Source of the DNA: Primulina eburnea
Lineage: Eukaryota > Streptophyta > Magnoliopsida > Lamiales > Gesneriaceae
Reading direction: 5' to 3'
DNA length: 64,000 nucleotides
Assembly (NCBI RefSeq): GCF_022965805.1
Contig: NC_133104.1
Location: forward strand, 28,020,069-28,084,068
In this document: one piece after another, positions 5,017-32,160 of the stretch
Position numbering within the stretch: the stretch's first letter is position 1
Layout of the letters: each line of letters opens with the position of its first letter
Translations under genes and position numbers: made by a program
The notes under the pieces: generated by a model
The model's input: the letters and a program-made list of their open reading frames with translations, nothing else
Database searches by the model: none
Told to the model about the DNA's origin: nothing

Positions 5017-6125
5017 CTAAGTTAAAAATCTTACCCAGACTTCCAAAACATTGAATTTCAAATACAAACTTAAAGCTTTAAGATATCTGTCATGAGCATG
5101 GTCTCCGGGTTCGTCTCCGCTGCATGGAGAGCAAAAACTCTGCCTTGAGTAGGCAGACTCCCCTGAGGGCAATTCTTCAGCAAGTGGTAAGGACTCCCAC
5201 ACTTGTAACACTTCCCTGAGCCATACATACAAGCTCCAGCATGACGACGCGTGAACCTAGGACAGACTGGATGCCCTAAAGTCCTCGAGAATGCACGTCC
5301 CTGCTGCTGAATGTCCTCTGTTTCTGGGTGGGCCGTAGAAAGGCTTCTTACTCTGATGCTGCTGCTGAGGAGGAGGACGGTGCGGTACTTGGACTGGTCG
5401 CTTGGCCTAGCGGTATCTCTCTATATCATTCTGGTTCTGCTCTGCAGCTAGAGCTCCTGAGACAGCGACGTCATAGGTAGTAGGGCCTTCCACCCTAACA
5501 TCACGGCACAAGATCGGCCGCAGACCATCTAGAAAATGCCTCAGTTTGGCTCCAGAATCATTCGTAATCAGGGTTACGAAATGGCAACCCCTCTCAAACT
5601 TACGGATGGACTCCGTAACAGTCATATCTCCCTACCTCAGGGTCATGAACTCCCTGGCTCAACCTGGAACGCACCTCGTCAGTAAAATATTTAGAGTAGA
5701 ATACCTTTGTAAACCGCGTCCAGCTTAGAGTAGCCAGATGCTCCTTCCCACAATAAGCGGGCGTCTCCTCTGAACAGATAGGTTGCACAACGAACCCTAT
5801 CTTCATCTCCGAGCTCCATGAATTCGAAAATAACCTCAAGGGACATAATCTAGCCCTCGGCAATCATAGGATCTTCCGTCCCTGAGAACTCCTTAGGTCT
5901 CATCTTAATGAATCGCTCATAGGTCGCCTCAGGCCCGGCCGGCCTGGCTGCCACAGCGTTATTCCCTGCAAACTGTGCGAAGAACCTATTCATCCTAGCT
6001 AACATCTGGGCGTTCATGTCCGGTGGAGGGGGTGGAGTTACATTCCTCTCTTGCCTCTGATTCTCGCCGTCCTCCTGGCGAGGCTCATCATATCTCGTGC
6101 GCTCAAGAATGCGTCTAGGAGGCAT
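5017..6125 (-). pseudogene. Gypsy gag, broken, with CCHC zinc knuckle
   Basis: Starts MPPRRILERTRYDEP and continues with a proline run and a gag core (TYERFIKMRPKEFSG, then pieces such as WTRFTKVFYSKYF). A CCHC knuckle, CYKCGSPYHLLKNC, is read at 5169-5210 on the minus strand. Gag forms the particle and binds RNA. Stops are frequent: TAG replaces Trp near 5850 and further stops lie at 5600-5700. The reading frame is split over at least four pieces. It starts about 230 bases from the primer-binding site. Confidence 0.85.
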
Positions 6126-9519: not shown

Positions 9520-9680
9520 TAATCACTTGAGCTATGAACTCATGTCTTGTTATATACATGAATCATTGAGGGTCACACAAGTATTGAGTTATGTGTTCAT
9601 GTTAATATAGTCAAATTGAAGGAATTGAATTTGGACACTGTATTTTGATAGAGATAAAATATATTGCTTATAAAGAAGTT
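9520..9680. other. intergenic segment between two retrotransposons
   Basis: 161 bases, unlike either flanking element. They hold the outer target-site copies: TAATC for the Gypsy element at 9520-9524 and AAGTT for the Copia element at 9676-9680. No gene is seen. It is probably a remnant of the ancestral sequence and would have been continuous with 20823 onward. Confidence 0.6.
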
Positions 9681-10601
9681 TGATAGGATCGGTTAATCGA
9701 ATAAAGAGTGTTTAGAAGGGGGGTTGAATAAACACTGCTCAAATTTAAATATTTTTCGACAATATGAGTTCAGTTTTGTTACAAACTTAAACTGGATATC
9801 CTAAAACAGTTGCGGAAAATAAACTGACTGAAAGATAGAGTATCTAACTGAAAATGAGAGCTGAAGTAATGACACAGTATGTTTCTGGATGTTCGGAGAC
9901 TTGAATAACTCCTACGTCACCCCTTCTATCACGAAGATAGGATATCCACTAAAAAACTTTGATCAAATACACGACACTGTACTGACCCACTTCAGTTTGG
10001 ACTTATCACTTTGTCAAAACTGAAACTCTTAGTATACAACACTTTTATAGATCGTAATTGATCTTAGCATAACTTAGAAAATCTATTAAAGATTACAAAG
10101 TGCTATATAAGCTCGAGAATGTAGTCTTGAATACTACTGATATGACTGATAAGCGTGAGCTGATTTATGATTGTGAGTAAATATTTCTGCAGCGTAATAG
10201 CAAGTAGAATAGGATAACAGAAAGTCGGGGGTTGTCTTCAGTTGCTGCCTTCGACTATTTATAGGTTCTTCTCTCAACGGTAACATTAAAGAATGTTTGA
10301 ATATTCTAACCGTTGATTGCCACGTCGATATATTCTGACAGTCGTACACTGTTCATTCTGCAATGCGACGTTCCACTACGAGTTTCAGGTATATGTACTA
10401 TTTTGTCTGTTGTCGCTTTCAACTGATGACGTGTACAGCTGAGAGATCAGCTGGTAAAGAATCAGTTGCCGAGAATGAACTTCAGTTGTATAGAACAGTT
10501 GACTAATGTTCAGCAGATGACGTGTTCAGTTGATGATCAGTTCAGTTGCTTAGTTTAGTTGGTAAGTCTTTTTGTCAAAGCACCGGAATAAGTTTCCAAC
10601 A
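9681..10601 (-). repeat. 3' LTR of the Copia element
   Basis: 921 bases from TGATAGGATC to TTTCCAACA. It matches the 5' LTR closely except for a missing stretch of about 30 bases after GGATATCC (near 9800) and scattered substitutions. It is directly preceded on the minus strand by the purine tract AAAGGGGGAAAT (10602-10613). Confidence 0.93.
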
Positions 10602-10752
10602 ATTTCCCCCTTTATGGTGTTTGACAAAACTTAGAATAAAAAATAACTGAATGACTGAACTCTTGTAGATAAAATAAGATGTAGATTCAACTGAACTCAT
10701 ATTCTTCATAGATACAAGAATTTAAGATTACTTCTGCTGTCCTAAAATCAGT

Positions 10753-12522
10753 TTAAGTCTCTTCCGCCTTTTTGTCAAACAGCTCCATCTTAGAAGATAA
10801 TTTCCGAACGTCAATAGATAGGAGCTTAACAGAGTCGGAAATATTGCTGATAGCAGTAGTCATTGCAACTTGAAGCAAGTCGATTTTTCTTGAAACAAGA
10901 GATTCTACACTGTCGACTCGTTTGTTGATAGAGTCTTGAGCGGCAGTGAGACTGGAAAATATCCCTCTGTTTTTCTGTATATCTTCAACTGCAAAAGTCA
11001 GAGAGGTAACAGCTGCTTGTATGGCGTTTAGTTTTTCTAAGTTGAACTGATGGGAAGATTCCAACTTCAGAGTGTGTGACAGCTGAGTGTTCTGAATCTT
11101 CGATATGGCAGTGATTATTTGTTGCATACTTTCCTGCATATGCTGAACTTCTTCAAAAATAAGATCAATATCTGATGAAGATGGAGGAGGAGACTGATGA
11201 GATGTTCCTGGTTCTCTTGTTGTCTGTTCAGAAATGACTAAAGCTTGTTCAGTTGAAACTGTATTAGCAACATTATGAACTGGAACATCAGTTACAATAA
11301 TTTCTCCTTGAACTGGAGGCGGTGATGGTAGATTCTTATCGGCAGAAGAACTGGCCAGATGAATGGCAAATGGTGATGAGACCAAAACTGGTGCCTCTAC
11401 AGAGTGAACGTGAGAATCAATCGGCACATCAGTCGAAATAGCTTGGTCAGCAACTGGATCTTGCTGAACTGGTTCTTCTGAAGAAATGGTGACCTCTGGA
11501 TGGATTTGATCAGCAGAGTGATCAACTGGATTAGACATAGGGTCTCTCAATTTAGTATCCTGCACCACTGCTTGGATAATTTCCTCAATGTTTGCAAAGG
11601 AAAGCTCGGCTTCCGTGTACAGTTGCTGTTCAGCAGGAGATGGTTGAGGCATATCCTGAACTGACTTTTCAGTTGGAACCAAAGCCTGTTCTGAGGATGG
11701 TTTTTCAACTGTATCCTCTTCATCAGTATCTGAATTTCTTTGATGATGAACCAACTCCTGATCCATTTCCCAAAATTTGATATGAGATTGTAACCCAAGC
11801 AAATCGGTATCAAGCTGAGTAATTACTGATTGATCAGCAAATGCAGTAGGATTTGTTGGAACGTAGTTGTCTTTCAATTTGCTGACAATTTGAGCCAACT
11901 TCTTGGATCTCACCTGATCAAACAAATAGGATTTTCTTTCCAACGCCTGAGCAATTGTTGCAGCTTTCACCGTTCTTAGAACATAAGCTTCCAATTTGAT
12001 GAAGGTGCTCAGCTGAGATTTCTTCTTCAGTTTCTTGGCAAAAACTTGTGTGTGAAAAGCTATCCAAGCATCGTAGGACTGAACTTTTGAAGCTGCATAA
12101 CTATTAACCTTTGCCCAAACAAGGTCAATGTGTGTCTGAATGGCATTGGAAGGTCTGGGCTCTTCAATCAGCTTACCCTTGCCTTTATCAGTGCTCAGAA
12201 TGTGAGGGATTTCCAATCCTGTTCGAGTTGATTCCACCACCTCTATAAATTTTATCCCTTTGGGTCGAGCAGGTGCCACACTGGCAGGGCGAGTGATTTG
12301 AATCAGAGGTGTTTTGGTCCTAACTGATTCCTTTTTGGCACCAACTGAAGCTTCTGGTGGAATGATTTTTAAAAGAACTGCTTCTATTGGTTGCTGAGCA
12401 TCTGAAGAAATAATTGTATCAGTAGGAATGGATACCTCGGCAGTTGTTGATTTAACCCTTTGGGTCCTTGGTTTCTTGGCAATCTGAGGAGATGGAGTTT
12501 TCTCTGATTCAGAAGTACTCAA
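10753..12522 (-). pseudogene. Copia extra ORF, C-terminal part (about 589 codons)
   Basis: This long frame starts MSTSESEKTPSPQ in a low-complexity, Ser/Thr/Pro-rich stretch. It has a short basic helical part near residues 130-230 (SKVQSYDAWIAFHTQ and RSKKLAQIVSKLKDN), an acidic Pro/Gln/Ser-rich middle, and a C-terminal helix-rich part of about 130 residues with heptad-like spacing (MQESMQQIITAISKIQ to LSSKMELFDKK), probably a coiled coil. The preceding codons KRKLIL stay in the same frame upstream, so the printed Met is probably internal. A one-base shift near 12530 and a TAG at about 12632 separate it from 12629-13371. No transmembrane segment is seen, so an envelope role has no support. 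Function is unknown. Confidence 0.75.
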
Positions 12523-12628
12523 AATTAATTTCCTCTTAGCTAACCTTCAGTTGAGCCAAAGTTTTGGCCTTCTTCATTGATTTTGGGGCTGCTTTATCAG
12601 TCCCAATCTCCTGTTTGATTTTGACAAA

Positions 12629-13371
12629 CTAAGCAGGAGAAATGTCCAGTTTGGTTCTCAGTGGCATAGTGTTCTTCGCATTAAAAACTTTAAACATTGA
12701 TGATCTTTCTGAGTCATCAGCCACTAATCCTTTCAATTTCAGCAGATAACTAAGTTGCACAGCAAATCCCTTGGATTGTTTAGAAGACAGAAACATATTT
12801 TTCAGAACATTAAATATAAGGTGCTTCCAGTTGAATTGACGATCAGCCATAATAACAGAAATGGACTTGAAATTTCTCCAAAGTAAGGGCAGCAAACGAT
12901 CCAGATTTTTCCAAAAGCCCTTCTGTTCTCCAAAGTAAGGGCTACAACATCAGCAAGTAACTGAACTTCATACTTCAGTTCTTTCTTTGGATCGGAGACT
13001 TTGATCTTCCGTCTATCAGCAGAGAGTGTGGTTTGCATCTCTTCAATATCAGATGCTTTAACATCCGAGAGTTGTTCCAATCCTTCAGAGGGTAGAGAGA
13101 AAATTTCTCCAAAGGAGTATTCAGAGATGGTCAGAGACTGATTATTGACAGTAGAAGTTATGTTGCCATCAGAGTCAACCATACCGGTGGAGTAGAAATC
13201 CTGAAGTTCTTTTGGGCAGATTTCTTGAGATGATGCACCCAAAAACGTCCTTAATCCAGCAGTCTCAAGTTTTTGAAAAACTTTCTTGACATCATCATCA
13301 CCGAAAGATAGGATTGACCCAAAATTGATAGCCATAGCATTTAGCATATAAGCGGGAATTTGAGTTGCCAT
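12629..13371 (-). pseudogene. Copia extra ORF, N-terminal globular domain
   Basis: Starts MATQIPAYMLNAMAINFGS; this Met at 13371 is preferred over an upstream Met at 13431 because the conserved-looking part begins here. The region reads LSFGDDDVKKVFQKLETAGL, YSFGEIFSLPSEGLEQL and, after a frame change near 12900, KSISVIMADRQFNWKHL and KQSKGFAVQLSYLLKLKGL. From memory, proteins with this plan occur in many copies in Gesneriaceae annotations, where they probably also derive from retrotransposons. A 13-base stretch (CTTACTTTGGAGA) occurs twice near the frame change. A TAG at about 12632 ends the frame. Confidence 0.65.
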
Positions 13372-13907
13372 TTCGAACTGATTGAATTCCTGAAAGAAAA
13401 GTTGAAGGATGAAACTTGTTCTTGCTCTCAAAAATCTGTGGATAAACGCAAAGTAAAACTGAAATGGAGCGGGGAATGGTACATATGTACGTGACTATTC
13501 AAATTCTGGATACGTGTCAATCCATAGAAATTCTGAATTACAACGTGTGTACGTGTGCTGTGATCATGTGTAATTTTACGGTTTAAAAAGTGTCCACGTT
13601 GACACTAATAATTTACTGAAACACGGCATTTAATGCTTGAAAGACAGTCACGTCGCTTGATTTTGAATACAATAGGTTTAATTAGTTAACTTATATGAGA
13701 AGATTAGTAAGACGCTCAACTGACCGATCAGTTGTTATTGTATCCTTTCAGTTGAGAGCTGACTAATCAATTGACTTCTCAGTTAACCTCTTAGAACCAA
13801 TATTCCCCCTAAATAAATGCATAAAATAATTAAAGCGAAAAGTAAATATCAGAGATATTAATTGCTGATGACACGTAGACGACCCTTCAGCTTCCTTGAA
13901 AGTTTGC

Positions 13908-13915
13908 TATAAATA
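13908..13915 (+). promoter_or_regulatory. TATA box of the antisense ORF
   Basis: TATAAATA in the context TTGCTATAAATAGAAG, 71 bases before an ATG on the plus strand. The spacing leaves room for a start site near 13940 and a purine-rich leader (GAAGAAGGAGAAAAC) ending in an A-rich context before ATG. This is seen in sequence; promoter activity is inferred. Confidence 0.55.
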
Positions 13916-13978
13916 GAAGTGACATTGTTAGTTTCAATCAAGTTGGTGGAAGAAGGAGAAAACAAAAAAAATAAAAAA

Positions 13979-14377
13979 ATGGCAGAAGCGAGTGGCTCAA
14001 GTGGTTCTCCATATTCTCTGGAAGCTAAGAAGGCGGCTATTGAAGATGAAGTCTTCTACACCAGTCTTCCCTACTAGGAAAAATTACTAGAACTTGAGTT
14101 CCTGTATAACTCCGGAGAGGCTACCACTCCCAGACTGGTGGAACAGTTGACAGAAGTGCGGGAGCGCTTGAATATCGCTGTTTGGGTGGATGTCTTTAGA
14201 GATGGTCACATTCATCAGCTGATGCTTCAGAAGGAGCTGGAGATTCTCAATCGCATAGCTTCTTCTCATAGCTTTTGTAAGACGTCTTCCTCAGCGCTAT
14301 CAGTTTGGTTGAGGATGTGGATAGCCGATGTAGAGGAAAAATATGACAGTGTAATTGAAGCGAATGTTTATCGTTGA
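13979..14377 (+). pseudogene. ORF on the strand opposite to Copia pol, one in-frame stop
   Basis: Reads MAEASGSSGSPYSLEAKKAA, then TAG at codon 33 (14075-14077), then 99 further codons to TGA at 14375, including LLELEFLYNSGE, RLVEQLTEVRERLNIAVWV and RIASSHSFCKTSSS. The composition is hydrophilic with likely helices and a Ser/Gly-rich start. It lies inside the Copia element between the end of pol (14593) and the extra ORF (13371) and runs against both. It has its own TATA box. I do not recognise a family. Accessory ORFs in antisense between pol and the 3' LTR are known in some plant retrotransposons, which supports a real accessory gene, now or formerly coding. Confidence 0.5.
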
Positions 14378-14592
14378 ATGAAATGTTTATTTTGGTGTAA
14401 CTTTGATGTTTCTTTTTCCTGCAAGTAATAGATTTTAATAACAGATAAACTAATGAACTGATGAAGCACTAACTGATAGAAGATTAACTGACATCAGTTG
14501 AGAGTCATAAAAATAAACAATTAACTGAAGAGCTAGTAAGTGACAGCAAAACTGAAAGATGAATTAAGAATCAAGACAAAAATAACAACTGA

Positions 14593-16730
14593 TTAGGATA
14601 AATCAATTAATCCAAGTATATTGCGAAAATGAGAAAACTTAGTCTCAGCCAATGGTTTGGTGAAGATATCAGCTGCTTGCTGCTAAGTTGATACGTATTC
14701 CAGTTTGATGTTCTTCTTCAGGGCATGATCTCTGATGAAGTGATGTCTGACATCTATGTGCTTAGTCCTGGAGTGAAGAACTGGATTATAGGTAATAGCA
14801 ATTGTGCTTGTGTTGTCACAGAATATAGGAGATTCCTTTGCATCAACACCATAATCTTTCAGTTGTTGCTGAATCCAGAGCAGTTGAGCACAGCAGCTTC
14901 CAGCAGCAAGATATTCTGCTTCAGTTGTGGAAGTTGCTATGGATGTTTGCTTCTTACTGAACCAAGAGATCAGTCTGTCTCCTAGAAACTGACATGATCC
15001 ACTTGTACTTTTTCGATCAAGCTTGCATCCTGCATAATCTGCATCTGAATATCCAACTAAATTGAAAGATGAATCTTTAGAATACCATAATCCAACATTT
15101 TGTGTGCCCTTAAGATATTTCAAAATACGCTTGGCAGCAGTAAAGTGTGATTGCATGGGATTTGCTTGAAATCTAGCACACATACATACAGCAAATACAA
15201 TATCAGGACGACTAGCAGTTAGGTACAATAATGAACCTATTAAACCTCTGTAAAGTGTCGTCTCAACTGATATTCCCCCTTGATCAGTGTCCAATTTAAC
15301 TGATGAGCTCATGGGAGTGCTTGCGGCTGAACATGATTCCATACCAAATTTCTTGAGTAATTCCTTAGTGTATTTGGTTTGAATGATAAAGGTTCCTGAA
15401 TCCAGTTGCTTCACTTGTAAGCCAAGGAAGAATGTCAGTTCACCCATCATGCTCATTTCGAACTTATCCTGTATTAACTTAGCAAACTTCTCGCATAATT
15501 TGGGGTTAGTTGACCGAAAAATAATGTCATCAACATACATTTGAACGAGTAGAATATGATCATTCTTGGAAATTTTGAACAAGGTCTTATCAACTGATCC
15601 AATAGAAAAATCGTGATCAGTTAGAAATTTTGAAAGAGTTTCGTACCAAGCTCTTGGAGCTTGTTTAAGACCATATAAGGCTTTGTTCAAATGATATACA
15701 TGATCAGGAAGGTGATGATTGATAAAACCAGGAGGTTGTTCAACGTAGACTTCTTCCTGCAACTGCCCATTCAGAAATGCACTCTTAACATCCATTCGAT
15801 AGACTTTGAAGTTTTTGAATGAAGCATAGGCAAGGAATATCCTGATTGCCTCCAGTCTTGCAACTGGTGCATATGTCTCATCATAATCAATTCCTTCTTC
15901 CTGCCTATAGCCTTGTGTCACTAGCCTTGCTTTGTTACGCACAACTGAACCATCTTCGTTCAGTTTTTTCCTGTACACCCATTTTGTACCTATAACAGTT
16001 TTCGAAATTGGTCTTGGAACTAAGTTCCAGACATTGTTATGGATAAACTGATTTAGCTCTTCTTGCATTGCATTTATCCAGTTTGGATCATCAAGAGCTT
16101 CATCAGTCTTCTTGGGTTATAGTTGTGATACGAAAGCTGAATGAATAAATAGATTGTGCATCTGATTTCTTGTTCTTACTGGATCAGATGCTTTACCTAT
16201 TACCAACTCTGGAGAATGTGATTTCTTCCATCTGAGTTCAGCATTTATTGCTTCTGAATCAGCAACTGCTTCTGTGGGTAACTGAACATTTTCAGTTTCA
16301 GTTGGAGCAGTTTCAGTTGGTAACTGAGTGTCATTTGGTTGCTCTATATACTGATCATTTGGAACAGCTTCTGGTTCTTCTGGTTGATCCAATACTTCCG
16401 GTTCAGGTGTTTGGAGATTGCTTTGATTGATATGGATTTCTTCTTCATCATCATCATCCAAGCTTATATCTGTAAATCTATCAGCTAGCTCAACTTGATC
16501 AGTTGGCTTATCAGTTAGTACAGTTTCATCAAAAACAACATGAATAGATTCCTCAACATTTAAAGTATTTTTGATGAAGACTCTATACGCTTTACTCACT
16601 GAAGAATAACCAAGAAATATTCCCTCTGCAGATTTAGCATCAAAGGCTTTTAAATGAGTTTTACCATTGACAAGTATAAAACATCTGCAGCCGAATATTT
16701 TGAAGTAGGAAACCACACTTTTTCTTCCAT
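14593..16730 (-). pseudogene. Copia integrase C-terminus, reverse transcriptase and RNase H
   Basis: Order on the minus strand: FKIFGCRCF and GIFLGYSSVSKAYRV (integrase end), an acidic linker, then RT from [10 protein letters not shown] with [30 protein letters not shown] and catalytic YVDD at 15526-15537, then RNase H with [22 protein letters not shown] and the typical end TKPLAETKF, stopping at 14593. YVDDIIF is followed by RST where GST is usual. Breaks: TGA for Trp in TPYEIWHG (about 16730), a stop at 16117, and TAG for Gln after EYVST (14683). The 461-codon frame 14683-16068 is otherwise continuous. Confidence 0.93.
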
Positions 16731-16731
16731 G

Positions 16732-17812
16732 TCAGATCTCATAAGGTGTTTTCATATGATTCTTATTAATCATTGATCTGTTTTGAGTGTAACACGCAGT
16801 GTTCACTGCTTCTGCCCAAAACCTTTGAGATACCAGAATCAGCAAGCATTGTTCTAGCAGCCTCTTTAAGGGTCCGATTTCTCCTTTCAGATACACCATT
16901 TTGCTGAGGAATTCTAGCTGCTGAGAGCTCATGCTTAATTCCGGCATTCTCTAAATAATTTGTAAGAATTTGATTGATAAACTCAGTTCCTCGATCAGAT
17001 CTGATTCTATCAATTCCAACTGATTTTTCATTTAATAATCTTTTGAAAAGCTTAATCAGTTGAGCAGCAGTTTGGTCTTTGGACTTGAGAAATATAACCC
17101 AAGTGAATCTTGAAAAATCATCTACAACCACCAAGGTGTATTTCATTCCCCCTAAACTCATGACTGGTATTGGACCAAATAGATCCATATGTAACAGCTC
17201 TAAGCATCGGGAAGAAGATTTACGACCCTTGTTCTTAAAAGAAGATTTAATTTGTTTACCAAACTGACATGCTGAGCAAATTTTGTCTTTGATAAAATCC
17301 ATTTTGGGCAGTCCAGTAACAAGATCGTGGTTACTCAAATATGCAATAGACTTGAAATTCAGGTGGTTTAATCTCTTATGCCACAACCAGTTTTTAGAAG
17401 ACTTTGAGGCAATAAAACATATTGGTGCATAAGGTTGATCATTCCAACTGACTTTGTAAGTGTTTCCACACCTTTTGCCAGCTAGGATGATCTCTTCAGT
17501 TGAGTTTTTGACTGAACAAGAATGTTTGTCAAACTGAACTGAGAATCTATTATCGCATAATTGACTGATACTGATCAGATTATACTTCAGATTCTCAACT
17601 AATAATACATCATTAATGGTGAAGTTACCATGGATAAGCTTACCCTTACCCACAGTTTTACCTTTAGAATTATCTCCAAAACTGATGTTTGGTCCAGTGT
17701 ATTTGACCAGTTGAGATAATAAATTTGAATCTCCTGTCATGTGGCGTGAACATCCAATATCCAAGTACCATATAGATTCAATGCTTGACCTGTTACCTGC
17801 AATCACACACAA
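16732..17812 (-). pseudogene. Copia protease and integrase core
   Basis: Begins with the protease: WYLDIGCSRHMTG, where the family has WYLDSGCSRHMTG, so the Ser beside the catalytic Asp is Ile. Then comes the pre-integrase zinc segment (WHKRLNHLN and CSACQFGK) and the integrase core with HMDLFGPIP, VVVDDFSRFTWV, IRSDRGTEF and PQQNGVSERRNRTLKEAAR. These hold the Asp, Asp, Glu catalytic set. The frame shifts near 16830 within RFWAEAVNTACYTQNR. The protein would cut the polyprotein and insert element DNA. The change at the protease site may inactivate it. Confidence 0.92.
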
Positions 17813-17836
17813 GATAAGATTCTGGTACCCCTTTTT

Positions 17837-18424
17837 CTATTTGGGTCCAAAGTTGATTAGTCTTTTAGGAATCCAGACTTGGATCAGTCTAACTGACCGT
17901 CCAGTTGCTGTATTCCAAATGGTCTTTCCCTGTTTGTGTGTGCTTGATATATGGTGTGCAGGAGATACAACATGTGATTTGCCCTTTTTCAACTGATTGT
18001 TCAGCCAGTATCTTTTCTGAATTGGCTTACTGTTGTAGTAATTTGAGTAGCCATTTAAGTAATTTTTGCTGAAAATTTTTGGTTGCTGACTTCGAGAGTT
18101 AGTCACAACTTTTGGGCTATAACCAATTCCACATCTTTTGCCCTTGTTCATACTTTGAGTTGGCTGTTCAATTAGTTTACTCGGCTCAGCTTGTTCTTGT
18201 ACCATAACTGATTTTACAAAGTGAATGTATTTCCCTTTGTTTATATTCAGTTTTGGCTGAGTATCTTTGGAAGACGAATCATCTTTACTACAGAATCCTA
18301 AACCAATTTTATCAGTAACTGATTTCTGAGAATTCTGTATATCAGTTGAAGCATCAGACGATTTGTTCCAAGCCTGAATAAGCTCAGTGTGCTTTGAATT
18401 TTCATGCAAAAACTTTTGAATCAT
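17837..18424 (-). pseudogene. Copia spacer between gag and protease
   Basis: An in-frame, hydrophilic stretch of about 195 codons rich in Lys, Ser, Asn and Gln (for example KSSDASTDIQNSQKSV and NYLNGYSNYYNSKPIQK), leading to IWNTATGRSVRLIQVWIPK just before the protease. No catalytic motif is seen. Sirevirus-like elements have such long spacers. A stop near 18430 separates it from gag, and a short break near 17830 from protease. Confidence 0.7.
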
Positions 18425-18454
18425 TAATTGATCCCTGCTTCTTTCATTTCTGAG

Positions 18455-19804
18455 CTAAGATATTTCCCTTCTCAGACTCAACATATCAACTGATTCATCA
18501 GTTTTTGTTTTATCGTCTTTGGGATCATTTTGCTTCGCTCTGGCTTTTTCAAACGATAAAGCAAGCTTTTGATACTCATTAACCATGTCATGCAATGTCG
18601 AAATAAGTTCTTCTCTGGTAAAATCAGTTGAACTAAAATCAAATACCTGTTGACTGCTGGACTCTAGTTCTGTATCAGCAGCCATCAGACATTTTACTTC
18701 TTCTTCATTGTCAATTGAACTGCATGAAGTTTCTGGTTCTGATTCCTCGCTGTCAGTGTCTGCCCATTTGGCTTTGCTATCTTCAGCTAGGAGTACTTCA
18801 TGTTTCTTTCTGTAAGGCTTCTTGTCGTCCTTAGATCTCCTCTTGTGCTCATATACATTCTTCTTTCTTTCAGTTGAAACTTGACTGTCCTTCTTAGGTT
18901 TGGGAGAGTCAGCAATATAATGACCTGGTTTGCCACAGTTGTAGCATGCATTTGATTCTTCTCTGGAGTTGTTTCTTTGATATTGCTTCTGAAAGTTCTC
19001 TTGATTTTTCCTCATAAATCTTCCAAATTTCTTAATGAACAATGACATGGCATCATTGCTTAGTTGATCAGCAGCTTTCTCAACTGAACCATTTGGTTCT
19101 GTTCTTACAGAAGTTAAGGCAGTAGTAGCTGCTAGAGTAGATGGTTCTCCTTCTCGAGTTTGTAGTTCAAACTCGTATGCCTTCAAGTCAACAAATAGAT
19201 CATGGAGTTCAACTTTGTTCAAATCTTTAGATTCCCTCATTGCCATGGTCTTTACGTCCCACTCCTTGGGAAGACCTCTGATTATCTTCAATGCAACTTC
19301 TTTGTTTGAATAAACCTTTCCAAGTGCATTTAGTTCGTTGATGATGCAGCTGGTTCTCTCATCATATTCATGCATTGTTTCTCCAACTTTCATTCTGATG
19401 TTGTCGAACTTCTGCATGGCAACAGAAAGTTTGTTTTCTTAGGTTTGTTCGTTGCCTTCGCAAAGCTGAATTAACTTCCCCCAAATTTCTTTGGCTATCT
19501 TGCACATCTTGATTTTACTGAACGTTACTTTGTCCAGTGTTTTGTACAATATTTGCTTTGCTACATTATCTAGATTTGCTTTCCTCTTGTCCTCAGTAGT
19601 CCACTCATCTCTTGGCTTTTCTATACGATGAGGTGCCCCATCAGTGATGGCAACAGCTGTATTGGTTTTCAAAATTTTCATGGGTCCGTCAGTTATAACA
19701 TACCACATATCATCATCTTGTGCAGCTAGGTGAGCCTGCATCCTGATCTTCCAATCGGCAAAGTCTTCTCTTGAGAACATAGGAATCTTGTTGAATGAAG
19801 ACAT
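18455..19804 (-). pseudogene. Copia gag, one nonsense codon, zinc knuckle damaged
   Basis: The ATG at 19804 (MSSFNKIPMFSREDFADWK) is chosen because it starts the standard Copia gag domain; the upstream frame reads into the leader. The domain continues with EIWGKLIQLCEGNE, then TAA (19439-19441) in place of a sense codon, then the same frame to 18455 with NKLSVAMQKFDNIRMKVGET and LKIIRGLPKEWDVKTMAM. The zinc knuckle is CYNCGKPGHYIADS: the last Cys of the CCHC set is Ser. The tail is acidic and Ser-rich. Confidence 0.9.
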
Positions 19805-19848
19805 AGTGAACAATTTGAGTTTAGATAATCTTTGATAGGATATGAATA

Positions 19849-19860
19849 GCTCTGATACCA
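19849..19860 (-). other. primer-binding site of the Copia element
   Basis: The minus strand reads TGGTATCAGAGC two bases inside the 5' LTR boundary, complementary to initiator tRNA-Met. It fixes the orientation and the LTR boundary at 19863. Confidence 0.9.
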
Positions 19861-19862
19861 CT

Positions 19863-20817
19863 TGATAGGATCGGTTAATCAAATAAAGAGTGTTTAGAAG
19901 TGGGGGTTGAATAAACACTGCTCGAATTTAAATATTCTTCGACGATATGAGTTCAGTTTTGTTACAAACTTAAACTAGATATCCCGTCGGTCAATAACAA
20001 TCAGTTAAACTGAATAAAACAGTTGCGGAAAATAAACTGACTGAAAGATAGAGTATCTAACTGAAAATGAGAGTTGAAGTAATGACACAGTATGTTTCTG
20101 GATGTTCGGAGACTTGAATAACTCCTACGTCACCCCTTCTATCACGAAGATAGGATATCCACTAAAATACTTTGATCAAATACACGACAATGAACTGACC
20201 CACTTCAGTTTGGACTTATCACTTTACCAAAACTGAAACTCTTAGTATATAACACTTTTATAGATCGTAATTGATCTTAGCACATCTTAGAAAATCTATT
20301 AAAGATTACACAAAGTGCTATATAATCTCGAGAATGTAGTCTTGAATACTACTGATATGACTGATAAGCGTGAGCTTTGATTTCTGATTGTGAGTAAATA
20401 TTTCTGCAGCGTAACAGCAAGTAGAATAGGATAACTGAAAGTCGGGGGTTGTCTTCATTTGCTGCCTTCGACTATTTATAGGTTCTTCTCTCAACGTAAC
20501 ATTAAAGAATGTTTGAATATTCTAACCGTTGATTGCCACGTCGATATATTCTGACAGTCGTACACTGTTCATTCTACAATGCGGCGTTCCACTACTAGTT
20601 GCAGGTATATGTACTATTTTGTCTGTTGTCGCTTTCAACTGATGACGTGTACAGCTGAGAGATCAGCTGGTAAAGAATCAGTTGCCGAGAATGAACTTAG
20701 TTTGTATAGAACAGTTGACTAATGTTCAGCAGATGACGTATTCAGTTGATGATCAGTTCAGTTGCTTAGTTCAGTTGGTAAGTCTTTTTGTCAAAGCACC
20801 GGAATAAGTTTCCAAAA
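19863..20817 (-). repeat. 5' LTR of the Copia element (955 bp)
   Basis: Starts TGATAGGATC and ends TTTCCAAAA, where the partner LTR ends TTTCCAACA. Its last bases are fixed by the AAGTT target-site copy that follows. It contains about 30 bases missing from the other LTR. The otherwise high similarity indicates a fairly recent insertion. Confidence 0.92.
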
Positions 20818-20822
20818 AAGTT

Positions 20823-22176
20823 TATAAGTAATTTTCATATTTGAAAGTTGTGGAAGTTAGCAAGACTACTAATTAAGTTAGGAGAATGCAGCAGTCTAAT
20901 TCAGTAAAAGAAATTCCAAAATAGACATCTGCAAAAAATAAATCATTGAAAAATTTTGATTTTGGAAATTTTCATTTTTAACCATAATAACAAAATTTGT
21001 ATCATCGTCACATCGATGATTGTTGATCTTCGATTGATATTATGATTAAATCACAATTAAATAATTAATGAATTTACATAGATTTTTCTCTCTTTCACAC
21101 CACCAAAAATTCAATCTACCTTGCTTTGAACATGACCTACGGTCGAGACACTCTTCAACCACCGTGTGAGAAAACGATATTCCAACAATACTCTCATATA
21201 TTGAGTCACCAATTTTTTCACAAATCATGGCGACCAATTTAACGCCAAATCTTTGGAACTACGATTTAACAGTAGAGATGAATACTTGTTGAATCTTTTC
21301 ATTTGTATTTCTTTAACCTAGTCTTTCTGAAGCTCAAACTCAGAGAAACACAAAGCTTGAAACTGGATCGAGTTAAAAATTAAATTGTGTCTTATCAGGA
21401 TTTTCATGAAATTTTCTATGATATTCGAGTTATTGCTTTTCAAACAAAATTTGCAAACCATTTAAGAAAAACAACATATTTGAGTAAAAATAATTACTAG
21501 AGGAGACTTACAAATTGTAGTCATCTGAAAAGAGGGGTCATTTCAGAATGCAATTTTGGAGTAGATAAATTTAGTAAGATAAATAAAATAGAATTGGTTT
21601 CTAATATAGTATGCAATATTGCATTATTTATAATTTCAAATTCAAATAAGACATCCCAAGATACAAAAATTATACATTAGATGCTTTTGACAGAATTATA
21701 TCATACATTAACTCTTTCAAATTATGGAAATCTCGAATTTCATGCATTGAGTGTCAAATATTTCTGATTATTGAGAGTAATATATACATTTGTTGAGAGT
21801 AATTTAATGTCCATTTGAAACTCTTTTGAATCTATCTCTTTTAATTTTTTTGTGCTCTCTTATTTGAATTTTTAAGAAGACAATTCAAGATATATATAAT
21901 ATACATATGGTTTTGGAAGAAAACTACAACGCATTAAATCTTTCAAATTAAGGTAATTTCGAAATAATATGTATTTGAGATAAAAAAAATTTATGATTAA
22001 TAAATTGTAAATTAATGTTCATTGGAAAACTTTAGTGATAACTTTTAACGCTAAACCAATTTTATTTTTAGAAAAATTAAATAAACTAATTAAATATTTT
22101 ATTTCTTTTTTAGTAAGTAATTTGGGTAGAAACTTATTTAAAATAGAAAAATTTATTTTTGAATGATTTACCTCAT
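20823..22176. other. AT-rich intergenic DNA, no supported gene
   Basis: No repeat boundary or coding signal is certain. A 63-codon frame on the minus strand (21046-21237, with VGISFSHTVVEECLDRRS) looks more protein-like than its surroundings, but has no recognised domain, promoter or partner exon, so it is not called a gene. Confidence 0.5.
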
Positions 22177-29346: not shown

Positions 29347-32160
29347 TATAATGGCCCGAAAATTCGTGTTTGAAAATTTACGGAAAATTTAAAATTTTGT
29401 TTTTAAAATAATCAAAATGCCTCATTCACAAAATAAAGTGATAAATCAAGTTTAATGTTTAAAAATAGCAGCGAAAGAAATTATTTCGCACAAAATAACA
29501 AATTAAAGTAATCCAGCAACTCATAAAAATGTTTGAGCATAAAAATGGCAAGTGCTGTAAATGAGGTCCTCGGGTTCCACTACTGCCGACACAAGCTAGC
29601 TCACTGGTCCCCGCCCTCGGCCCCGACATCATCAGCACCTACAACAATCAAGTCTAGTGAGTCTAAAGACTCAGCATGCATATATCGTAAATAACGAGTA
29701 AATAATATAGTAAAATTGCATGGGATAAAAAAAAATCATGTCATGAGGCATAACGTGAAAATAACTTATCATGAGCAATTATAATACGTGCATAACTGAA
29801 CTGAAACTCATAGTGAAAATGTTTGCTCAATCGAGCCCTGTAATGAAATATCATGTAATAATTTTCTGTTGAGATTATGATCTATGCAAGTGACCCCTGA
29901 ACTGAACTGAACTGAACTGACCGGTAACTGGCGACCAGGTGAAGTAATAAACGTCTGATCAGACTAATGCCACAGTATATTGGGTGGTACATAACTGAAC
30001 TGACCGGTAACTGGCGACCGGATGATACAATGATCCCATGATAGTGAAATGGTCACAAGCAATATCGCATAAATCTCAAAAATGAATATTTTATAATTTT
30101 ATGCACGTAATATAATTAAATGGCATTATGAAGTATCCTGTATTATTTTACCACATGGATTGGATCGTTCTCAGGCTCACTGCGACCTAAATTTAACATG
30201 AAAAATATGCAAATGATTTTCTTGACCAAACTTTGTAATTGAATCCAAAAATGAGACAATTACGCCCAACGACTTCGTATTTAATCATGACTCCATGCCA
30301 ACCTGAACCAACACCGAACCATCATTTAGTCATGATTAAAATACACTTAAAATGATGAAATAATCCTCCTAAAATGGTGAGGCCGAAATTTTGGTGAATG
30401 GAGGCCAAAACATGAAACGCTCTTTCGAGAGTCAATTTGGCACATCGCACCGTAATTTCTCGTACGACTTCTAAAATGATCCGAATCACGAACGGCAAAA
30501 AACATGACCTTTCTAACACGATGAGGCACAGTTCAGTCCAAGGACATAGGCTAAAAGCCAACCAAGGACCCGAAATGTACCTCTGAACCGCAGGTACAGT
30601 TGCTGTCACAAAACAATACAGCAGCTGTGCTTTGGTTTCCTTGCGTCGTTTGCGAGGCTAATGGCCATTGGGGCTTGAACCACTGACCAAAGCCTCTTAC
30701 CAACATCCTAGGGTATGGTTTGAACCATGGCTAAGGGTCAGAGGCCAACCAAGATCCACACCATTCCACCAAAAACCGAACAACACATGTAGTAGGGGAA
30801 AGGGCCGAGGGGCTGTTCTTGTTTCTTTAATTAAAAACCGATTCAACCATGGACCAAGCCTCAAAAGAGCGACTTGGTCAAGTCTTAGACATGATAGGGA
30901 TAGGTTATAACCATGGCTATAGCCCTTAGGGCAGCCAAGATCAGATCCATTTCCCTTTGACAGCAACAACAAAAATCGAAGCACAAAAAAGGGCATGCTT
31001 GGGAAGTTGCTGTCATTTCTGATTTCCAGCATGTATGGGGCTTGAACTAATGGACCAACATGATCCTAACATGTCTTAGTACATGTCTAGATACAGCTTT
31101 GGGAGCCTGGACACGAGCCATCCACCTGAAACACCAAAAACAAGTGAACCGTGAGGAGCACAAGGAAGGGCCGAAAACCTGCATCTTTTATTTTTGAAAA
31201 GTTCTTGATATATTTCGGTTATACCATGGAAATGATGATCATATAATGTTTAAAAATGTTAATATGACTTGATTGAAGAGCGAGGAAAAATATAAACATG
31301 CCTGGTTTCGTTTTGAAAAGAAAAACGAACGAAACGACGACGCGGCGCGGAGGAGAGGGAGCGTTTTCTATCTTGCTTGCTACTCGATTTTTCCTCTTGT
31401 TTCTACCTATGAGGGTCACGATTTTTCTCTCAATATGGCTCTGAATTCGGTGGTGAGGAAGGGGAAATGGTGGTTAGGAGAGTGAGGGGAAGGGGTTGCA
31501 ATATAAGAGGGATGGCAAGACCAAGTCTACCTCTTTTGAAATTTGAAATTGTTTGCTAACCAAATGATTGTTGGAGGGATACTAGAGTGACCGAATCCTA
31601 CATGCTAAACAAGGCTAGGATATTGATTTAATATTAATTAATTAAGGGTGATTAATAAATGAAAAGATTATCATGCTAAGGGATGACAAGGAAAGGGTCA
31701 AAGGTGAGTTGGCAAGGAATTGATTAATCATCTAAGGGGCCGAAAATTAAACAAATATATGGAGGGGAAATATTGTTTAGTTAGTAAATTTTAAACCTTT
31801 AGAGCCTTACCTATCCTTTAAATAATTTAGTGAATTAACACCAAAAATTATGGAACCTAAATGAACTTATTTCCTACTCACCTCAAGTTACTTAAATAAT
31901 TCCTTAAACCTTCTTTTAACTTAAATTAACTTATTAGCTAGCAATAATAGACTCTGGGAATGATTTTCTAAATCTTAAATTTTATCTCAAAACTTCAACT
32001 CCAGTCCGGCCTCACTGAATTAACTGAAAAGATAAAAATTTAAACTACTGCATAAAATAACTAAATTTTAAAGAAAATCATTTAAATACTCATGCAATAA
32101 AATCATTTTAATTTAAAATACTAGAATTATGCATACGTAGTCTAATTTACGGGTTCTACA
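29347..32160 (-). repeat. 3' LTR of the deleted Gypsy element
   Basis: Ends GGGTTCTACA at 32160 and begins TATAATGGCCC, where TGTAATGGCCC would be expected, so the terminal TG is mutated. It is collinear with 6372-9519 but clearly diverged. Small ORFs inside have no protein character. Confidence 0.88.

Follow-up and report, generated by a model that had tools for sequence, protein, structure and literature searches.

A frame of 132 codons running antisense to gag and pol inside a retrotransposon of Primulina eburnea is probably a genuine accessory gene of a Sirevirus-like Copia family, with a putative internal promoter and a selected acidic protein of 132 residues, and the copy analyzed here is broken. 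The window, meaning the whole stretch of DNA that was analyzed, comprises 64,000 nucleotides of contig NC_133104.1. An earlier note on this DNA had described TATAAATA at 13908, a purine-rich leader, an ATG at 13979, and a frame of 132 codons interrupted by a TAG at codon 33, and each of these observations is correct. Its larger proposal, a gene read antisense from a promoter of its own, holds for the coding frame on the plus strand, which is open in a relative and carries a mark of protein-level selection, while the promoter is proposed from the DNA itself (TATA box, ACGT cluster, and shuffles). The features of the element are as follows.

9681-20817, minus strand: Ty1/copia LTR retrotransposon, from the LTR pair, Pfam domains, and junction motifs, with ends read by eye
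9681-10601, minus strand: 3' LTR, from the LTR alignment
10604-10611, minus strand: polypurine tract AGGGGGAA, then AT/TG at the LTR edge, from a motif scan
10753-13371, minus strand: sense extra ORF in two broken frames, from the ORF list
13432-13978, plus strand: region proposed as promoter for the antisense gene, lying between two divergent extra ORFs, with 7 ACGT cores
13908-13915, plus strand: TATAAATA box, from the sequence
13979-14377, plus strand: probable antisense gene of 132 codons, with internal TAG at 14075-14077 (codon 33) and final stop at 14375-14377, from the ORF, relatives, and substitution test
14378-14682, plus strand: putative 3' UTR of the antisense gene, with AATAAA at 14512, from the sequence
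14683-17812, minus strand: pol (gag-pre-integrase, integrase core, SH3-like, RVT_2) in several broken frames, from ORFs and Pfam
17837-19918, minus strand: gag with zinc knuckle and the next frame, 17837-18424, broken, from ORFs and Pfam
19849-19862, minus strand: primer binding site TATCAGAGC with spacer AGTGG, adjoining the 5' LTR end CA, from a motif scan
19863-20817, minus strand: 5' LTR, from the LTR alignment

The antisense frame lies on the plus strand and gag-pol on the minus strand, which is the position and orientation of antisense ORFs of the Grande and Retand type. Its ATG, 71 bases downstream of the TATA box, has A at −3 and G at +4. The remaining five frames of the same stretch contain 5 to 10 stops each, none of them nearly open, and the longest stop-free run on the minus strand is 67 codons. 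Because no minus-strand ORF of at least 80 residues in the ORF list overlaps the frame, opposite-strand coding does not account for its conservation. In dinucleotide shuffles, frames reaching 132 codons or more with no more than one stop arose 0.31 times per shuffle of the plus strand of the element and 0.06 times per shuffle of the region between pol and the LTR, so the length of the frame by itself is unremarkable. The real plus strand contains one such frame, the TATA-led one, and none of 400 shuffles of either stretch produced such a frame with TATAAATA 35-120 bases upstream, the expected frequency of TATAAATA being 0.015 per 100 bases of a single strand. GC content is 45% in the frame, 34% upstream, and 30% downstream. 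Between 13432 and 13978 there are seven ACGT cores compared with 2.25 in shuffles (P 0.002, in a test made after the cluster had been spotted by eye). From the TATA box, the leader, and the ACGT cluster, we infer that the antisense gene has a promoter of its own.

Relatives were sought among 5.77 billion protein clusters, using the antisense frame with an X at the stop as the query. One of 25 candidates matched, with an E value of 3.8e-62: P0001, a protein of 132 residues that starts and ends as the antisense frame does, aligns without gaps, and is identical at 102 of 132 residues (79% identity across 92% of the query by BLASTP). P0001 comes from a 534-base contig and may or may not lie in a retrotransposon. 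A profile search recovered P0001 and a second protein, P0002, among 451 candidates, with P0001 as the sole full-length relative found. P0002 is a gene model of Primulina eburnea, Primulina being a genus of Gesneriaceae; it has the same start and follows the antisense family over its first 46-47 residues (identity to P0001 at 34 of 47), and the remainder resembles, by eye, a Ty3/gypsy integrase, as in a fusion. The stop at codon 33 is missing from both proteins. Searches for relatives of P0001 in IMG/VR viral contigs (18 stretches matched the pattern, none confirmed) and in GTDB bacterial and archaeal genome contigs (113 stretches, none confirmed) have little meaning for a plant gene. Judged by these protein matches, the antisense frame is a member of a real protein family.

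P0001 is known as a protein only, and selection was therefore assessed with BLOSUM62 scores in place of dN/dS. The window frame and P0001 differ at 30 positions, of which 29 were scored, the stop being left aside, and the null was random mutation of the window frame up to an equal number of changes. The changes in P0001 had a mean score of +0.83, compared with −0.43 (SD 0.31) under neutral mutation, and this value was reached in none of 2000 simulations; with a strong C-to-T and G-to-A bias the null rose to −0.19 (SD 0.30), and +0.83 was reached once in 2000. Three earlier simulation runs of the same conservatism each gave 0 of 1000. Residues 47-132 taken alone, with the null over the whole frame, had their score reached in 0 and 2 of 2000 simulations (neutral and biased, respectively), and residues 1-46 alone in 31 and 23. 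The score of P0002 was reached in 259 and 331 of 2000 simulations and provides no evidence of selection. That P0001 has no new stops is unremarkable, the same being seen in 417 and 254 of 2000 simulations, as is its longest run unchanged from the window frame, 23 residues (P 0.054-0.059). Since the changes in P0001 are more conservative than neutral ones, it appears well supported, on this single comparison, that the frame has been selected as a protein.

The host element is 11.1 kb long, with 4.1 kb between pol and the 3' LTR, and the AAGTT found on either flank, at 9676-9680 and at 20818-20822, is a candidate target duplication (by eye). Its LTRs differ at 26 of 920 aligned bases (2.8%) and by nine gaps, in an alignment of slices that extended a few bases past the LTR ends. 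Pfam matches above the cut-off were to gag, zinc knuckle, gag-pre-integrase, integrase core, an SH3-like domain, and the copia-type RVT_2, the scan of the gag region having covered all but frame 17837-18424. The coding sequence of the element is spread over several frames, and the window copy is therefore broken; the damage extends to gag, pol, and the sense extra ORF, and a stop interrupts the antisense gene. The sense extra ORF had no Pfam match at the cut-off, and of the 7994 best candidates scored for its longer piece, 10756-12522, none was a relative at E ≤ 0.001. No further copy of the element was detected in the window by BLASTN (E 1e-3), and apart from matching itself the antisense gene had three TBLASTN matches, all at chance level (E 4.7 or worse). 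Elsewhere in the window, a minus-strand ORF of 91 residues at 5850-6125 resembles, by eye, a fragment of a Ty3/gypsy gag.

The junctions and layout suggest that the host element is a Sirevirus-like Copia. The Sirevirus polypurine tract is described as the octamer AGGGGGAG, 10 bases from the 3' LTR, with the attachment site AT/TG, and as a variant with a terminal A in ToRTL1 and Tnd-1 (PMC2829016). Here, AGGGGGAA followed by AT/TG corresponds to the ToRTL1/Tnd-1 variant, and the plain octamer AGGGGGAG is absent. At the other end, the described junction of 5' LTR and primer binding site reads CA, then ATTGG or AGTGG, then TATCAGAGC (PMC2829016), and the element has CA, AGTGG, and TATCAGAGC. A further Sirevirus feature is a cluster of several polypurine tracts in the part of the linker close to the 3' LTR; in the window element the octamer occurs at 10604, 13803, 15273, and 17146, always on the sense strand, with two of the four in the linker and two in pol, and the rest of the window holds two more, counting either strand. 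The octamer at 13803-13810 lies between the divergent extra ORFs, about 100 bases upstream of the antisense TATA box. The terminal polypurine tract is accompanied by an inverted repeat with a perfect arm of 10 bases, plus CACC over one gap (by eye), which is shorter than the average of 28 bases given for Sireviruses, in a source that reports such repeats for nearly half of the remaining Copia elements as well (PMC2829016). That source further describes Sirevirus LTRs as carrying a repeated motif with a CGG-CCG core and a C-rich integrase signal near the LTR end. A sense extra ORF between pol and the 3' LTR is reported for 74% of SIRE elements (PMC6317226), and the broken ORF at 10753-13371 occupies the position of the env-like ORF of the SIRE lineage. 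As described in PMC2829016 and PMC6317226, that lineage (SIRE1, ToRTL1, and Tnd-1) thus shares with the window element the polypurine tract, AT/TG, the primer binding site, the AGTGG spacer, and a long linker with a sense extra ORF; the window element differs in its additional antisense gene and in having two of its four polypurine octamers in pol.

P0001 is acidic, with a pI of 4.8 and 12 lysines plus arginines against 20 aspartates plus glutamates. Neither P0001 nor window residues 34-132 matched a Pfam family at the cut-off; the sole match of P0001 up to E 1 was a subthreshold one to DCD_N (E 0.1), and Transposase_28 (the Retand domain) gave no match up to E 1 with either query; there was no SMC match. 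There were no PDB matches by sequence up to E 10, and the best PHROGs match had an E value of 0.29. An AlphaFold model from two sequences was poor (pLDDT 63.2, pTM 0.52), and Foldseek returned 360 PDB matches up to E 10 of which none reached E ≤ 0.001; given the weak model and the lack of a match at that level, no fold was assigned. Direct DNA binding by the antisense protein was considered and is disfavored by its acidity; because the protein is acidic and has no recognized domain, protein contacts are preferred. The gene would be transcribed from the internal TATA promoter against the genomic RNA, with a transcript that would stop before pol, and its product would be the small acidic protein of 132 residues that the comparison with P0001 indicates has been kept by selection. 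A promoter of its own would permit production of the protein while the LTR is silent, and the protein would most likely act through protein contacts that affect expression of the element itself or silencing by the host.

The hexamer AACTGA/TCAGTT occurs 94 times in 9682-20826, compared with 12.8 expected from a dinucleotide model and 8.9 from the flank density of 0.79 per kb scaled to the length of the element; it was chosen as the most enriched hexamer of the window element, so these figures are post hoc, and they cover that one element. Its density in the element is roughly tenfold that of the flanks; it lies on both strands and fills the LTRs, the linker, and the coding sequence. In eight sense ORF pieces it appears 50 times, compared with 17.0 in synonymous-codon shuffles (maximum 32 in 2000), and the motif is therefore no by-product of the protein sequence. 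By piece, the observed count was reached in 0 of 2000 shuffles for integrase and likewise for RT-RH, P was 0.0005 for 17840-18424 and 0.0115-0.03 for four pieces, and the first gag piece gave P 0.49. The antisense frame has one site in 399 bases (synonymous shuffle P 0.29), and seven sites at 14456-14592, 3' of the antisense gene, are not significantly clustered (P 0.08). Outside the element, a short run of tandem AACTG units is found at 29794-30000. Many copies of the hexamer include CAACTG or TAACTG. Because both of these are listed as MYB binding sites (PMC4689866), binding by a host MYB would be the plain reading of the motif. The VANC system of VANDAL transposons, as described in PMC5735166, likewise combines an extra protein with a short motif enriched along the element; VANC motifs lie mainly in noncoding tandem repeats in one orientation, whereas here they are also found in coding sequence and on both strands, and the antisense protein is acidic. 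By analogy, the antisense protein, expressed from the putative internal promoter, might act at the AACTGA/TCAGTT sites, or recruit a MYB-like partner to them, and counter silencing of its own family; the enrichment of an element-specific motif is of the VANC type, the association of motif with protein is hypothetical, and we consider the idea a long shot.

An alternative source of the conservation would be all or part of a host gene that the element captured in antisense orientation, in which case the conservation would mirror the host gene and not a function in the element. The TATA box, leader, and start context do look like those of an ordinary plant gene, the GC content of the frame exceeds that of its surroundings, the scarcity of the AACTGA/TCAGTT hexamer in this short frame is what a later arrival might leave, and P0001 could lie outside any element. 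However, no Pfam family at the cut-off, no PDB chain, and no host gene among the matches of either protein search points to a captured gene, and the only annotated relative, P0002, continues (by eye) into integrase-like sequence; we regard capture as rather unlikely. The antisense RNA itself could be what matters, pairing with genomic RNA to feed or block silencing, with the protein secondary. Any transcript from about 13940 on would be complementary to the RNA of the element, and antisense transcripts without coding capacity, together with a role for double-stranded RNA, are treated in PMC7264820, but a function in RNA would leave the conservative amino acid changes unexplained, which makes this account improbable. 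Least probable of all is a chance open frame behind a chance TATA box in decaying sequence. The stop, the broken state of gag, pol, and the sense ORF, and the frequency of near-open frames of this length in shuffles of the plus strand are compatible with chance, which is nevertheless already contradicted by P0001, a full-length relative whose ends coincide with those of the frame and whose changes are conservative, and none of the 400 shuffles combined such a frame with a TATA box in place. The preferred reading remains an accessory gene of the element, selected as a protein.

Grande and RIRE2 are Ty3/gypsy elements, and AtRE1 and Mdoryco1-1 are Copia elements. Precedent for a gene that is antisense and has its own promoter comes from maize, where gene23 of Grande encodes a nuclear protein (PMC7264820). 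As gene23 is described there, both genes are antisense, lie between pol and the 3' LTR, have their own promoter (here by sequence), and encode an accessory protein without a known domain; the window gene differs in its Copia host, in the sense extra ORF next to it, and in having only 132 codons, and the likeness is drawn from description, not from sequence. Most likely, the antisense gene would be an accessory gene of the gene23 kind, acting on the cycle of the element itself. Antisense ORFs between pol and the 3' LTR, common to families or species, are also described for Retand (with Transposase_28), RIRE2, and bean pvRetro13 (ORF2) and 14 other families (PMC11963269, PMC4093653). These sources place Retand and all 15 bean families in Ty3/gypsy, unlike the window Copia element, and the bean ORF2 proteins have 211 to 939 residues (PMC4093653) against 132 here; Retand antisense ORFs under 600 bp are mentioned as well (PMC11963269). 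Antisense promoters inside plant LTR elements are reported for AtRE1 and Mdoryco1-1 (PMC7264820), so an antisense start in a Copia element has precedent; the window element shares with these two an internal antisense start (putative here), and the passages on them in that source mention no accessory protein. A survey that found 582 Copia extra ORFs counted them from 250 codons up (PMC6317226), and a gene of 132 codons was therefore uncountable there. Among the entries listed in our literature search, no title or opening of an abstract announced an antisense gene for a Copia or Sirevirus element.

The published antisense accessory genes of plant LTR retrotransposons considered here belong to Ty3/gypsy elements (a class assigned partly from general background), and most are longer. 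Surveys with a 250-codon cut-off, such as that in PMC6317226, would miss some genes of the kind described here. The element-wide motif suggests a partner, either a host MYB or an element protein, and the gene offers a concrete case for the question of what antisense accessory proteins do. Finding a short antisense gene under selection in a Copia element of Sirevirus type, next to a sense extra ORF, would point to more than one origin for this class of gene.
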